From positions 1-11,410 of the forward strand of contig CAMDKN010000024.1 of the NCBI GenBank assembly GCA_945901035.1: DNA of 11,410 nt, written 5' to 3'. The notes under the pieces were generated by a model, which saw only the letters and a program-made list of their open reading frames with translations, did no database searches and was not told the origin of the DNA. Shown here one piece after another: positions 6,553-11,400 of the stretch (positions are counted from its first letter, which is position 1; the number at the start of each line of letters is the position of its first letter). Source of the stretch: Gulosibacter massiliensis. GTDB lineage: Bacteria > Actinomycetota > Actinomycetes > Actinomycetales > Microbacteriaceae. Position numbers and translations under genes: made by a program.

Positions 6553-7416
6553 TTAGGAGAGCGACTTCGTGTGCCACACGGTTTTGGTCTCGACGAACGC
6601 CGCGATTCGGTCAACCGCACACTCGGTCGCCCCGAAAGTTCCGGGACGAATGACGCGCATGAGCGTTTCCGCCGCCGACCGCTCGCACTCCACGGCGAGT
6701 TCCCGTTCAGCCCCGGTTAGGTCGATGGCATTGACGTCGGCGTGAGACGCCAGCCACGGAGTCACCTCGGCGACCGAACCCGTCAGAATGTTGATCGCAC
6801 CGCCGGGGACATCACTGGTCGCGAGCACCTCCGCGAACGTCATCGCGGGGCACGGCGCCGACTCGCTCGCGAGCACCACAACCGCATTTCCGGTGGTGAG
6901 CGCGGGGGCGATTGACGCGACGAGACCGAGCAGCGACGTTCCGTTTCCGGACGGCGCAACCAGCGCGACGACACCGGTCGGTTCAGGGACGGACAGATTG
7001 AAGAACGGACCGGCAACGGGGTTCGCCCCGCCGTGCACCTGTGCGAACTTGTCGGTCCAACCGGCGTACCAAACGAGACAGTCGATCGCCGAGGCGACCT
7101 CGGCTCGGGCATCCACCGGCTTCACGCCGGTCGCCTGGATAATCTCGGTCACGAACTGTTCCGCACGACCCTCGAGCATCTCGGCGATTCGATAGAGGAC
7201 CTGACCGCGGTTGTAGGCGGTCGCTCCGGACCATCCCGCCACAGCCGCTCGAGCGGCGACAACCGCATCGCGCGCGTCCTTGCGACTCGCCTGAGCGACG
7301 TTGGCGAGGAACTCCCCGGCGGGACTGGACACCGTGGTGGTTCGCCCCGATTCACTCCGCGGGAACTTTCCGCCGATGAACAGTTTGTAGGTCTTGGGGA
7401 CGGCGAGTCGGGTCAT
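6553..7416 (-). CDS. Catalytically dead aldehyde dehydrogenase-like protein (ALDH16 C-terminal domain type)
   Basis: This 287-residue protein has the aldehyde dehydrogenase fold but is much shorter than the usual ~480 residues. It begins with the usual N-terminal pattern (KLFIGGKF, then SPAG, at about 11-33). It continues through PEPTGVVALVAPSGNGTSLL (about 145-163) and TSDVPGGAINILTGS (about 200-214), then ends near AAFVETKTVWH. The cofactor lysine motif KPAE is replaced by ASES, the general-base region is not recognisable, and there is no catalytic-cysteine motif. This matches what I know of the C-terminal pseudo-enzyme domain of bacterial two-domain ALDH16. The ATG overlaps the upstream dehydrogenase by 4 bp and has a strong GGAGG site. 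It is probably a structural partner of that enzyme. Only 33 bp separate its stop from truB, so it is not a cut-off full-length gene. Confidence 0.85.
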   Translation of the reverse strand: MTRLAVPKTYKLFIGGKFPRSESGRTTTVSSPAGEFLANVAQASRKDARDAVVAARAAVAGWSGATAYNRGQVLYRIAEMLEGRAEQFVTEIIQATGVKPVDARAEVASAIDCLVWYAGWTDKFAQVHGGANPVAGPFFNLSVPEPTGVVALVAPSGNGTSLLGLVASIAPALTTGNAVVVLASESAPCPAMTFAEVLATSDVPGGAINILTGSVAEVTPWLASHADVNAIDLTGAERELAVECERSAAETLMRVIRPGTFGATECAVDRIAAFVETKTVWHTKSLS

Positions 7417-8861
7417 CGTGCACCTCCGCTGGCGAGATAGGCCGCGAGACCGTGTCGGCCACCCTCGCGCCCGTAACCCGATTCTTTGTACCCGCCGAAC
7501 GGGCTGGTCGGGTCGAACTGGTTGAAGGTGTTCGCCCACACCACGCCGGCCCGGAGCGAATCGACAACCCGCAGCATGCGGCTCGCGTTGTTCGTCCACA
7601 CCCCGGCACTCAGTCCGTAGGGCGTGTTGTTGGCTTTCGCGATCGCCTCATCGGGCGTGCGGAAGCTGAGAACCGACAGCACTGGTCCGAAAATCTCGTC
7701 TTTCGCCACGGTGTGACTCGTCGTCACATTCGTGAATATCGTCGGGCGGAACCAGAACCCAGCCTTCGGAATTTCGCAGTCGAGTGTCCAGCGGTCCGCG
7801 CCCTCCGCCTCGCCGGTCGCCGCAATCGCGGTGATGCGGTCGAGCTGGGCGCGCGAGTTGATCGCACCGATGTCGGTGTTCTTGTCGAGCGGATCGCCGA
7901 GGCGCAGTGTCGACAGTCGGCGCGTCAGTTTTTCGACCACCTCGTCCTGGACGTTCTCCTGGACCAGAAGGCGCGAACCCGCGCAACACACGTGACCCTG
8001 GTTGAAGAAGATTCCGTTGATGATGCCCTCGACCGCTTCGTCCATCGCCGCGTCATCGAAGATGATGTTGGCGCCTTTGCCACCGAGCTCCAGAGTGAGC
8101 CGAGTGTCCGTGCCGGCGAGCGTGCGGGCGATGCCGCGTCCCACCGCGGTTGACCCGGTGAACGCGATCTTGTTGATGCCCGAGTGCTCGACCAGAGCCT
8201 GACCGGCGACACCGCCGAGACCGGGGATGATGTTGACCACGCCCGCGGGCAGCCCGGCCTGTTGGCACACGTCGGCGAACAATAGAGCCGTCAACGGGGT
8301 GGTCTCAGCGGGTTTGAGAACGACGGTGTTTCCCGCAGCCAGTGCGGGGGCGACCTTCCACGCCAGCATCAGCAGCGGAAAGTTCCAGGGAATGATCTGA
8401 CCGGCGACTCCCAGCGACGACGGCTTCGGGCCGAGCCCGGCAAATTCGAGTTTGTCGGCCCACCCGGCGTAGTGAAAAAACCACGCTGCGACGAGCGGGA
8501 TATCGATGTCGCGCGTTTCGCGAATCGGCTTGCCGTTGTCGAGGGTTTCGGCGACAGCAAACTCGCGGGCACGCTCCTGAATCAACCGAGCAATCCGAAA
8601 CAGGTACTTGCCGCGTTCGGCTCCGCCCATCTTCGACCACACGGTGTCATAGCTCTTTCGCGCGGCGGCGACAGCCCGGTTCACATCGGCGGCATCGGCG
8701 AGGGCGATTTCCGCGATGGGTTTTTCGGTCGCGGGCGAGATGGTCGTCATCGAACCACCGTGTCCGTCCGACCAGGCTCCGTCGATGAACAGACCGTACG
8801 ACTTCTGAAGTTTCAGAATCGCGGTCGATTCCGGTGCGGGGGCGTAATCACGAAATGTCAT
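7413..8861 (-). CDS. NAD(P)-dependent aldehyde dehydrogenase, full catalytic domain
   Basis: This 482-residue aldehyde dehydrogenase, beside deoC, probably oxidizes the acetaldehyde released from deoxyribose-5-phosphate to acetate. All key residues are visible: the oxyanion asparagine in PWNFP (N160), cofactor lysine in KPAE (K183), the Rossmann motif FTGSTAVG (234-241), and the general base in LELGGK (E258). The catalytic cysteine is in FFNQGHVCCAGSR (C292, spaced 34 residues from the base as in ALDH2), and the NAD-ribose glutamate is in EIFGPV (E389). The ATG lies 9 bp after the deoC stop, and its AGGAAA site overlaps that stop. Its end overlaps the next, catalytically dead ALDH-like gene by 4 bp (ATGA). 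Substrate is inferred from context only. I read it as the catalytic half of a split ALDH16. Confidence 0.92.
   Translation of the reverse strand: MTFRDYAPAPESTAILKLQKSYGLFIDGAWSDGHGGSMTTISPATEKPIAEIALADAADVNRAVAAARKSYDTVWSKMGGAERGKYLFRIARLIQERAREFAVAETLDNGKPIRETRDIDIPLVAAWFFHYAGWADKLEFAGLGPKPSSLGVAGQIIPWNFPLLMLAWKVAPALAAGNTVVLKPAETTPLTALLFADVCQQAGLPAGVVNIIPGLGGVAGQALVEHSGINKIAFTGSTAVGRGIARTLAGTDTRLTLELGGKGANIIFDDAAMDEAVEGIINGIFFNQGHVCCAGSRLLVQENVQDEVVEKLTRRLSTLRLGDPLDKNTDIGAINSRAQLDRITAIAATGEAEGADRWTLDCEIPKAGFWFRPTIFTNVTTSHTVAKDEIFGPVLSVLSFRTPDEAIAKANNTPYGLSAGVWTNNASRMLRVVDSLRAGVVWANTFNQFDPTSPFGGYKESGYGREGGRHGLAAYLASGGAR
7421..7427 (-). promoter_or_regulatory. Ribosome binding site deciding the start of the short ALDH-like gene
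   Basis: GGAGGTG on the minus strand ends four bases before the ATG at 7416 (GGAGG core, 6 nt spacing). It excludes the longer reading of this frame from 7599, whose first 61 residues are arginine-rich shadow of the upstream gene. Confidence 0.75.
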
Positions 8862-8870
8862 GCGCGTTTC

Positions 8871-10058
8871 CTAGTCCACGGTCACGTAGTCGGGGCCGCT
8901 GTAGTGGCCGGTGGTCATCTTTTGACGTTGCAGCAGGACGTCGTTGAGCAAACTGGAGGCGCCAAAACGGAACAGGTGCGGGTGGATCCACTCCTCGCCC
9001 GCGACCTCGGCGACCGCGACCAGATAGCGAATCGCGTCCTTGGACTGGCGAATTCCGCCCGCCGGCTTGACGCCGATGCGCTCGCCGGTGAGGGCGAACC
9101 AGTCCCGAACGACCTCCAGCATCAAAACGGTGGTGGGCAGAGTCGCCGCCGGCTGAACTTTTCCGGTCGAGGTCTTGATGAAATCGGCACCGGCGAGAAT
9201 CGCCAGCCAGGACGCGCGTTTGATGTTGTCGTACGTGCGAAGCTCGCCCGTTTCCAGAATGACCTTGAGGTGCGCGTGGGTTCCGTCGGGGCGTTCACAG
9301 GCCCGCCGAATGGCTACGATTTCGGAGAACACCGCGTCGAGATCGCCCGAGAGGAACGCGCCGCGATCGATCACCATGTCGATTTCGGTCGCACCGGACG
9401 CGACGGCGTGACGTGTGTCCGCGAGTTTGATGGCGAGCGTCGAGCGCCCGCTGGGGAAAGCGGTGGCGACCGAGGCGATTCCGACTCCGGTCACTCCGTC
9501 ACCGGCTCGTGCACCGAGTGCGGTCACGGCGTGGTGGACCATATCCGGGTACACGCACACTGCCGCAACACGCGGAGCCGTCGGATCCGCGGGGTCGGGT
9601 AACAGCGCCTTCTGCACGAGCGAACGCACTTTGCCACGCGTGTCGGCGCCCTCCAGCGTGGTGAGGTCGATCAGTCGAATGATGGTGTCAAGCGCCTCGC
9701 GCTTGGAATCGTTTTTGATGGAGCGGGTTGCGAGTCGCGCGGCGCGGTCTTCGAGCCCGATGGCGTCGACTGACGAAAGTCCGTAGAGAAATGCGCGAAG
9801 GGACGACGAGTCGACAACACCGCGGGCACGCGAGCGCTCGGTGGTCGGGAATCCCGCGACCGCGTTGGCGTCGCCCGATTCCGAGCCATCGACAATGGAA
9901 ATCGCCACGATTCCCGTGTCACGGGCGAGGGCCAACAGGCGTCCCGCTTTCCAGCGCGTAATGGTCAAAATCTCGCCGATCTCGTCCTGCGTTTTTCCGT
10001 CGTCGTAATAGAGTCGAGCCGCGCGCAGAGCGAGATCGTTGTCCGAAATTTCCGTCAC
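8871..10058 (-). CDS. deoC: Deoxyribose-phosphate aldolase with N-terminal SorC/DeoR-type DNA-binding domain
   Basis: DeoC cleaves 2-deoxyribose-5-phosphate to glyceraldehyde-3-phosphate and acetaldehyde. Residues about 84-395 form a complete long-type DeoC domain. The general-acid region is EIDMVIDRG (D227), followed by HLKVILETGEL (K265). The Schiff-base lysine lies in ADFIKTSTGK (K295), the helper lysine in GVKPAGGIR (K331), and the protein ends GPDYVTVD. Residues about 8-55 are extra and read as a SorC-family helix-turn-helix: AARLYYDDGKTQDEIGEIL, then TITRWKAGRLLALARDTGIV. A linker of about 28 polar residues joins the two. The ~250-residue sugar-binding domain normally following this helix-turn-helix is absent. 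The start is GTG at 10058, six bases after a -10 box. No ATG occurs until residue 173, so a separate short DeoC is unlikely. It is first in an operon with two ALDH genes and may regulate itself. Confidence 0.93.
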   Translation of the reverse strand: MTEISDNDLALRAARLYYDDGKTQDEIGEILTITRWKAGRLLALARDTGIVAISIVDGSESGDANAVAGFPTTERSRARGVVDSSSLRAFLYGLSSVDAIGLEDRAARLATRSIKNDSKREALDTIIRLIDLTTLEGADTRGKVRSLVQKALLPDPADPTAPRVAAVCVYPDMVHHAVTALGARAGDGVTGVGIASVATAFPSGRSTLAIKLADTRHAVASGATEIDMVIDRGAFLSGDLDAVFSEIVAIRRACERPDGTHAHLKVILETGELRTYDNIKRASWLAILAGADFIKTSTGKVQPAATLPTTVLMLEVVRDWFALTGERIGVKPAGGIRQSKDAIRYLVAVAEVAGEEWIHPHLFRFGASSLLNDVLLQRQKMTTGHYSGPDYVTVD

Positions 10059-10064
10059 AGACGC

Positions 10065-10093
10065 ACTCTACGCGCATATGAGCAGAATGCCAA
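10065..10093 (-). promoter_or_regulatory. Leaderless promoter of the deoC-ALDH operon
   Basis: On the minus strand TTGGCA (10088-10093) is followed by 17 bases, then TAGAGT (10065-10070, a TANNNT box), then six bases and the GTG start of deoC. There is no ribosome binding site, so transcription should begin at the start codon. The promoter supports the full-length reading that includes the helix-turn-helix. Confidence 0.65.
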
Positions 10094-10097
10094 CATT
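10086..10097. promoter_or_regulatory. Possible operator: short inverted repeat over the deoC -35
   Basis: AATG, CCAA, CATT: four-base arms around a four-base centre, overlapping the predicted -35 of the deoC operon. The arms are short and could arise by chance. The site is suggested only because the operon's first gene encodes a DNA-binding domain, and SorC-family regulators bind near their own promoters. Confidence 0.25.
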
Positions 10098-10108
10098 TGC
10101 GCGCGCGG

Positions 10109-11035
10109 CTACAGGTGGAGCGTGCCGTCCGCGATGAGGGTGCGGATGTTCCGGAAGTCGCCGTGCAAAGCCTCGATGAGTTCCTCCACGGAAGCGAAGG
10201 GCACGTTGTCTCGAAGCCAGTGGGTGAATCGGATTTCCGCGACCGCACCGTAGGCGTCAAAGTCCGCGTCGAGCGCATGGGCCTCGACCTGATTGCGCGT
10301 TACATCGGTGAACGTCGGGTTCTTGCCCACCGAGATACCCGCTAGGTATTCGACGCCCAAAACCAGAACGCTGCCCGCGTACACCCCGGATTTCGGGATG
10401 AAGCCCTCGTTGTTTTCTTCCAGGTTGACCGTCGGGTAACCGAGCACCCGCCCGCGCTGGTGACCGTGAACGACGAGCCCGCGCACGCGGTGCGGGCGAC
10501 CCAGTAACTGGGCGGCGGTTTCGACATCGCCGGCGGCGAGGGCGTCGCGAATTGTCGAGGACGACACTTTCACCCCACCCTCCAGGCAAACATCCCGGAG
10601 CACATCGACGGAAAAACCGCGCGCGTCACCCATCTCGGTGAGCGTTCCCACGTTTCCCGAACCGCCGGAGCCGAAACGAAAATCGGCCCCGACCAGGATC
10701 AACTGGGCCGACAGACCGTCCACCAGGATGCTCTGAACAAAGTCTTCGGGTGATGTGGCGGCGAATTCTTCGGTGAACGGTAACACGACGACGAGGTCCG
10801 CACCGGCGTCGTGGAGCGCTTCGACTTTTTGGGGAATCGACAACAGCGGCGTGGGGGCACGCGACGGGTCGAATAGTTCGAGCGGGTGGCGATCGAAGGT
10901 CACGACGGCTACTCGTCGACCATCGGCTTTTTCGCGCAACGTGCGCAGCACCTCCCGATGCCCGATGTGGACACCGTCAAATTTTCCAATCGTCACGACC
11001 GAATCGACTCCGTCGCGCGGCAACGGCCAGTTCAT
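10109..11035 (-). CDS. ribF: Bifunctional riboflavin kinase / FAD synthetase RibF
   Basis: RibF phosphorylates riboflavin to FMN and adenylylates FMN to FAD. The 308-residue protein has an N-terminal FMN adenylyltransferase domain with the nucleotidyltransferase motif GKFDGVHIGH at 17-26 (K18 where most have N) and SSSTIRDAL at about 158-166. The C-terminal riboflavin kinase domain has GRVLGYPTVNL at 195-205, SGVYAG at 216-221, and the catalytic glutamate in VEAHALD (E251). The ATG at 11035 overlaps the upstream membrane gene by 4 bp (ATGA) and has a GGGGAG site 7 nt upstream. The same frame is open 63 codons further up, but that part has no homology and lies inside the upstream gene. No FMN riboswitch is seen before it. 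Confidence 0.96.
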   Translation of the reverse strand: MNWPLPRDGVDSVVTIGKFDGVHIGHREVLRTLREKADGRRVAVVTFDRHPLELFDPSRAPTPLLSIPQKVEALHDAGADLVVVLPFTEEFAATSPEDFVQSILVDGLSAQLILVGADFRFGSGGSGNVGTLTEMGDARGFSVDVLRDVCLEGGVKVSSSTIRDALAAGDVETAAQLLGRPHRVRGLVVHGHQRGRVLGYPTVNLEENNEGFIPKSGVYAGSVLVLGVEYLAGISVGKNPTFTDVTRNQVEAHALDADFDAYGAVAEIRFTHWLRDNVPFASVEELIEALHGDFRNIRTLIADGTLHL

Positions 11036-11400
11036 CGGCGAACTCCCCGAGCCCACCAGAGCCCGAGCATCGGAAGAATCACAGGCAAGAACCCGTACCC
11101 CGCACCGAAATACGACCACACCGAGTTGGCGTGGAAGAGCGACGGAATGAGAACGGTCAGGAACCCGACGCTGAGCACACCGATCAGTTCCACGATCATG
11201 ATGACGATGGCGAAATTGCGCCACCTGCGAATAATCGCGAGCACAGCGAGCAAATAGTGGGCGGCCGCAATCGCGGACATCGTGTAGGCGAACGGCGCGT
11301 CGGAAAACTTGGTGATGATTTGGAAAACGCTGCGACCCGTCGCGGCGAGGGCCAAAATCAAATAGCCGATTGTGAGCAAGCGCCCGAAGCCGTCTTTCAC
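11032..11400 (-). CDS. Conserved four-helix membrane protein upstream of ribF
   Basis: This 122-residue protein of unknown function has four predicted membrane helices at about 7-24, 38-57, 62-85 and 97-117. The first loop, TGRSVFQIITKFSDAPFAYT, and the last segment, FGAGYGFLPVILPMLGLWWA, resemble a small actinobacterial membrane family found beside ribF; I know it only by pattern. The GTG start at 11400 is preceded by AGGA six bases upstream, separated by a run of A, right at the window edge. The upstream promoter or partner gene is not visible. Its end overlaps ribF by 4 bp, so the two are translated together; a role in flavin transport is possible but nothing in the sequence shows it. Confidence 0.82.
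   Translation of the reverse strand: MKDGFGRLLTIGYLILALAATGRSVFQIITKFSDAPFAYTMSAIAAAHYLLAVLAIIRRWRNFAIVIMIVELIGVLSVGFLTVLIPSLFHANSVWSYFGAGYGFLPVILPMLGLWWARGVRR

Follow-up and report, generated by a model that had tools for sequence, protein, structure and literature searches.

Repressors of the SorC/DeoR type, among them DeoR, LsrR and SorC, share a helix-turn-helix (HTH) of about 55 residues followed by a strand, base-contacting arginines and a palindromic operator with a CATATG-like core. According to the portions of the DeoR study drawn on here (PMC11229326), R34 and R39 of DeoR contact bases, the beta-linker after the HTH serves as a dimerisation interface, the effector domain holds together the tetramers in which SorC proteins bind DNA, and half-operators of DeoR by themselves gave no binding in solution. 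The same portions describe control of the deoC operon dra-nupC-pdp by DeoR and covalent binding of deoxyribose-5-phosphate in its effector domain, as the initial annotation had stated for the Bacillus subtilis protein. In the trigger enzymes PutA and BirA, an enzyme and the repressor of its own operon are combined in one chain (PMC6978683, relevant part). No report of a SorC/DeoR-type HTH fused to DeoC was found in the open-licence PMC papers searched.

Such a fusion is encoded in the DNA analysed here (the window, the whole stretch of 11,410 nucleotides), in the gene order ribF, HTH-deoC, aldehyde dehydrogenase, short aldehyde dehydrogenase (Table 1). The window's own genome comprises 1.2 Mb at 80% completeness. 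The start codon (ATG) of the short aldehyde dehydrogenase overlaps the stop codon of the preceding gene. As the match of the short protein is limited to profile positions 5-216 of 461, and the catalytic cysteine presumably lies outside these positions, it should be devoid of the part that carries this cysteine. The short homologue was also observed in the fused relative L036 (287 aa), and a similar short reading frame in strain MWH-Ta3.

Table 1. Positions of the fused gene, its neighbours and the predicted promoter and operator elements in the window
Feature	Position	Strand	Basis
Fused gene, SorC/DeoR-type HTH and deoxyribose-phosphate aldolase	8871..10058	-	395 aa, GTG at 10058-10056; fusion in 13/15 genus genomes
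HTH and beta-linker strand, residues 6-57	9888..10043	-	NF053881, LsrR and PDB DeoR/LsrR/SorC matches; pN/pS
Variable linker, residues 58-80	9819..9887	-	pN/pS 0.53; pLDDT <50 at residues 53-67
Aldolase part, residues 81-395	8874..9818	-	TIGR00126, E. coli DERA; D227, K295 and K331 identical in 53/53
Catalytic codon D227	9378-9380	-	
Catalytic codon K295	9174-9176	-	
Catalytic codon K331	9066-9068	-	
Aldehyde dehydrogenase, following gene in the presumed operon	7413..8861	-	PF00171, E 4.6e-159
Short second aldehyde dehydrogenase homologue, 287 aa	6553..7416	-	PF00171 profile positions 5-216 of 461
ribF, upstream neighbour	10109..11224	-	NF004160 above cut-off; listed ORF, start provisional
Putative operator palindrome TGCTCATATGCGCG in promoter spacer	10071..10084	-	mean pairwise identity 0.88, 14 fused loci
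Putative second operator element CGCGCAAATGTTGG, overlapping the -35 box	10090..10103	-	conserved part, mean pairwise identity 0.92, 14 fused loci
Predicted -35 box TTGGCA	10088..10093	-	
Predicted -10 box TAGAGT, leaderless type, six bases before GTG	10065..10070	-	pattern in 14/14 fused loci

The N-terminal part of the protein was assigned by profile and structure matches. Residues 6-61 matched NF053881, the model of B. subtilis-type DeoR (E 1.1e-8, 34.6 bits; full-length cut-off 420), and residues 4-55 matched the LsrR model (E 5.8e-8, 32.3 bits; full-length cut-off 486); both scores are far under the full-length cut-offs because only the DNA-binding domain is present. Matches to PDB chains of DeoR (8r7y), the DeoR DNA-binding domain (7bhy), LsrR and SorC (4l5i, 2w48) pointed to the same type, in agreement with the initial annotation. 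The Pfam scan of the protein returned no HTH family above its cut-off, and the sole N-terminal match was Sigma70_r4, below the cut-off (E 0.0047). Pfam found DeoC and no SorC effector domain (PF04198) in the protein. By the profile and PDB matches it shows the HTH with beta-linker that defines the SorC/DeoR subfamily; the C-terminal effector domain that also defines it is absent.

Residues 126-375 were assigned to deoxyribose-phosphate aldolase (DeoC/DERA), which we take to be EC 4.1.2.4. They matched TIGR00126 above its curated cut-off (E 3.2e-49, 167.2 bits; cut-off 117.3) and E. coli DERA (E about 3e-44). D102, K167 and K201 of the E. coli enzyme, presumably the catalytic residues, align with D227, K295 and K331 of the fused protein, which were identical in all aligned proteins (53 of 121 proteins). 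By its sequence, the protein is a DeoC with the catalytic D, K and K, and K295, aligned with K167, had been named correctly as the Schiff-base lysine. The earlier description of an HTH in one frame with a full DeoC therefore stands for this 395-aa reading frame, and so does the absence of the SorC sugar-binding domain, with the aldolase in its place: PF04198 was detected neither in the fused protein nor in the 13 genomes that carry the fusion. An enzyme and a DNA-binding domain would thus be translated as one chain, the arrangement that characterises trigger enzymes, as far as sequence alone can tell. In the same alignment, residue 274 was Arg in all 31 fused rows, Ala in four sister rows and Asn or Thr in the 18 others.

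The structure was predicted with AlphaFold2, as the initial annotation had proposed (53-row alignment; mean pLDDT 84.2, pTM 0.77). The model has three N-terminal helices (residues 6-19, 24-30 and 35-47) followed by the aldolase, and pLDDT is below 50 at residues 53-67. The 50 Foldseek rows shown were all DERA or designs on a DERA scaffold, with E. coli-type DERA as the nearest solved structures; the small HTH was absent from these rows.

All 14 fused promoters, from 13 genomes (G005 gives two), follow the pattern TTG-N20-TANNNT-N6-GTG, with the GTG in frame at the HTH. Mean pairwise identity in the 14 loci was 0.70 for the -10 box, against 0.46 upstream and 0.44 for the six leader bases. As this leaderless-type promoter ends at the in-frame GTG of the HTH in all 14 loci, the HTH is very probably translated, and translation very probably starts there. 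A start downstream of the HTH, which the initial annotation had named as a result that would speak against the fusion, would lie inside the linker and yield a plain aldolase with the HTH unused, and two listed homologues (P0058 and P0060; 315 and 314 aa) do begin at a linker codon, but selection on the HTH codons and the position of the promoter make this reading very improbable. Records of 402 aa (P0028, P0029, P0031 and others) are nine residues longer and start with MRICAY; this start was probably called too far upstream, as in the close relative L010 those bases would overlap the operator palindrome.

The fusion was present in 13 of the 15 genomes of the genus, truncated by contig ends in two of the 13. 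The remaining two are G010 (MWH-Ta3), which is unfused, and G008 (61% complete), which gave no DeoC match. Full-length relatives are 80-87% identical to the window protein. Among 120 homologues listed (8000 scored), 57 contain RWKxGRLL in their first 70 residues, and the other 63 (314-344 aa) are without it. The domain pair, for which a search had been proposed, was present in both sets. In a sample of 398 Microbacteriaceae genomes, 229 had a DeoC match at E <= 1e-60, and among the matches listed from this sample, alignments starting at residues 1-5 came from the window's genus only. Two further candidates for a fusion were rejected: G290, aligned from residue 34, has a separate SorC gene of 336 aa, and for G093, aligned from residue 43, an HTH was absent from the 3.5 kb of sequence inspected. 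Among the genomes and listed matches compared, the fusion was seen in one group of freshwater actinobacteria. The records of two fused genomes (L037 and L045) bear the name Gulosibacter, perhaps wrongly, as both are placed with the genus by the taxonomy used. The start of the fused gene occurs twice in one assembly, in L003 and in L031 (G005:C36:9269-9655); the latter copy is truncated by a contig end and may reflect a strain mixture or a duplicate.

Most of the fused genomes (12 of 13) correspond to records labelled as metagenome assemblies, in which a junction of this kind could be an artefact. That explanation is hardly credible, since the same junction occurs in 13 separately assembled, diverged genomes with a constant gap of 85-88 bp between the end of the HTH match and the start of the DeoC match. 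A chance overlap or assembly error was rejected on the same grounds, together with the in-frame HTH motif in the 57 listed homologues. The frame is open in 13 genomes.

Selection on the protein was compared as raw pN/pS over 12 loci from 12 genomes, an all-pairs figure from related genomes, calculated without L014 and L031, which are cut by contig ends, and with L007 missing its last residues. The values were 0.051 for residues 34-46, 0.175 for 10-57, 0.53 for 58-80, 0.194 for 81-125 and 0.109 for 126-375. The recognition helix (residues 34-46) is thus the most constrained stretch, with a value under that of the aldolase, and in the linker (residues 58-80) only 6 of 23 positions are invariant in the 12 genomes. 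R35, W36, K37 and R40 were identical in all 31 fused rows, and R35 and R40 align with the base-contacting R34 and R39 of DeoR. The strand after the HTH (IVAISIV) is kept, but the effector domain is not. Judged by these substitution patterns, the HTH is still under selection and shows the conservation expected of a functional module. An HTH that has lost DNA binding and serves folding or oligomer assembly only would fit the changed operator layout described below; the constraint on the recognition helix, the invariant base-contact arginines and a palindrome at a fixed place in all 14 promoters make this improbable.

The two-gene state was found in MWH-Ta3, where the order at the same locus is ribF, SorC, deoC, aldehyde dehydrogenase, short aldehyde dehydrogenase, and no gap separates SorC from deoC; in the fused relative L036 it is ribF, HTH-deoC, aldehyde dehydrogenase, short aldehyde dehydrogenase. 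MWH-Ta3 is also the only one of the 15 genus genomes with PF04198. From the HTH match to the DeoC match, unfused loci have 795-979 bp in place of the 85-88 bp of the fused ones. The simplest history suggested by these gene orders and distances is that the SorC effector domain was lost in frame. In the DeoC tree, 31 fused and four unfused G010-like rows form one group (100/100). With fused and unfused labels set by length and N-terminus, two changes of label are required on the best tree and a single one on 34% of bootstrap trees; the fusion may have had one origin.

The distance of 795-979 bp between SorC and deoC was observed in 65 unfused Microbacteriaceae loci (L015-L112; duplicates L013, L032, L044, L090, L095 and L113 removed, other duplicates may remain), which also have a strong shared operator. 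This SorC-deoC operator could define a deoC regulon in Microbacteriaceae. The sequence TGCTCATATGAGCA precedes SorC in 64 of the 65 loci with at least 11 of 14 positions, and the degenerate consensus matches at least 12 of 14 in 64 of 65, in the same 160-bp stretches. At 16 of 16 deoC loci without an HTH in the stretch analysed the operator was absent, the best match to this consensus being 11 of 14 in up to 600 bp upstream (two of these loci have only 138 and 225 bp of upstream DNA). In 50 of the 64 unfused loci, TGTTG follows the palindrome centre at a distance of 21 bp, and 12 of the 64 are without TGTTG; 46 of the 52 loci with TGTTG have a -10 box after a 17-bp spacer. In MWH-Ta3, the upstream palindrome TGCTCATCTGAGCG is accompanied, 21 bp away, by a spacer element that is weak (11 of 14). 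Apart from the SorC promoter, this strain has five operator-like places (L114, L127, L131, L133 and L134), more than the control pattern gives, so that its SorC regulon may be wider.

In the fused loci, the strong palindrome lies in the promoter spacer, with one half degenerate. The upstream palindrome is gone in all 14 (best 8-10 of 14 positions). The centres of the second element and the palindrome are 19 bp apart in all 14 loci vs 21 bp in unfused ones. This layout change is the main departure from simple operator inheritance and may reflect a new oligomer scaffold. With a position weight matrix built from the unfused sites, 10 of the 14 fused upstream regions scored higher than every one of 1000 shuffles, and in the other four the score was reached by 1-3 of 1000; the top site in L011 was a different one, by the start codon. 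The pattern YGCKCATNTGMGCR has a single occurrence, at this promoter, in the genome from which the window comes (80% complete). Of the 13 fused genomes, 12 carry it at the promoter of the fusion, the exception being G011 with a mismatch; three further occurrences lie elsewhere in the fused genomes, and the reversed control pattern gave six matches in 15 genomes. The region 10059-10108, which the initial annotation had singled out for DNA binding, thus appears to hold a SorC-type operator overlapping the promoter, with palindrome and second element in all 14 loci. Two conserved elements are present at the fused promoter; a tetramer on a two-part operator would be the arrangement typical of the SorC/DeoR subfamily. 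The -35 and -10 boxes by themselves would also conserve some of these bases.

We infer DNA binding by the fused protein, and its repressing action from the overlap of operator and promoter; repression is more likely than activation because the elements lie over the promoter. In the proposed mechanism, the effector domain of an ancestral SorC/DeoR repressor encoded just upstream would have been deleted in frame, and the DNA-binding and dimerising module of this repressor would so have been joined to the aldolase. The fused protein would bind two palindrome-like elements at its own leaderless promoter, where they overlap the -35 box and the spacer, and repress the operon of HTH-deoC, aldehyde dehydrogenase and short aldehyde dehydrogenase. 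Since SorC tetramers are held by the effector domain, loss of this domain could weaken DNA binding, and the aldolase part may replace it as the oligomer scaffold. By inference from the HTH type, the domain swap, the conservation of the HTH, the start at the HTH and the operator overlap, the self-repression suggested at the outset is well supported. The protein is probably a DNA-binding, self-repressing bifunctional aldolase, whether with or without sensing of its substrate, the two readings that together make up this estimate.

In the first of them, deoxyribose-5-phosphate bound at K295 as a Schiff base would shift the oligomer and release the promoter, with the active site as the sensor. The aldolase that replaces a domain of the kind that senses covalently in DeoR keeps K295, K331 and D227 in all 53 rows, PF04198 was not found in the 13 fused genomes to sense instead, and R274, fixed in the fused rows and absent from the 22 others, is a possible coupling residue. 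That a separate SorC sensor might act in trans was rejected on the same PF04198 scan; nine of the 13 genomes scanned are less than 90% complete, and the four that reach 90% (G001, G007, G009 and G014) are also without the domain. The presence of K295 says nothing on coupling to DNA binding, because catalysis needs this residue anyway. The variable linker and the low model confidence at the joint between HTH and aldolase are not suggestive of a rigid allosteric path. The sensing switch is therefore held tentatively, at somewhat less than even confidence. Self-repression without sensing, in which binding is independent of ligand and the operon level is set by protein concentration, draws on the same HTH and operator data, which it would explain equally, on the loss of the sensor domain and on the small genomes, in which it would be a simplification, but it would leave a catabolic operon no longer inducible by its substrate; it is regarded as possible, with a slightly lower degree of confidence.

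The formation of DNA-binding enzymes is rarely visible, and here the two-gene state, the fusion, a conserved HTH and a rearranged inherited operator are found at one locus. DeoR's covalent sensing domain and the catalytic covalent bond of the aldolase concern the same compound, deoxyribose-5-phosphate. If sensing is true, an enzyme would have taken over the role of a sensor by simple fusion, and enzyme occupancy would be the inducing signal.

Compared with the SorC/DeoR repressors, the fused protein has the same HTH with its strand and base-contact arginines and a related putative operator. DeoR controls a deoC operon, and the fused protein lies at its own deoC operon. The repressors differ in carrying an effector domain where the aldolase stands here, and the 19-bp spacing is particular to the fused loci. 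With DeoC/DERA the whole aldolase and its catalytic D227, K295 and K331 are shared, whereas the N-terminal DNA-binding domain is absent from the other Microbacteriaceae DeoC listed. The fused aldolase would be like PutA and BirA if the reading is right; it differs from them in the enzyme and in the DNA-binding family, and here the two-gene state survives in a sister strain.
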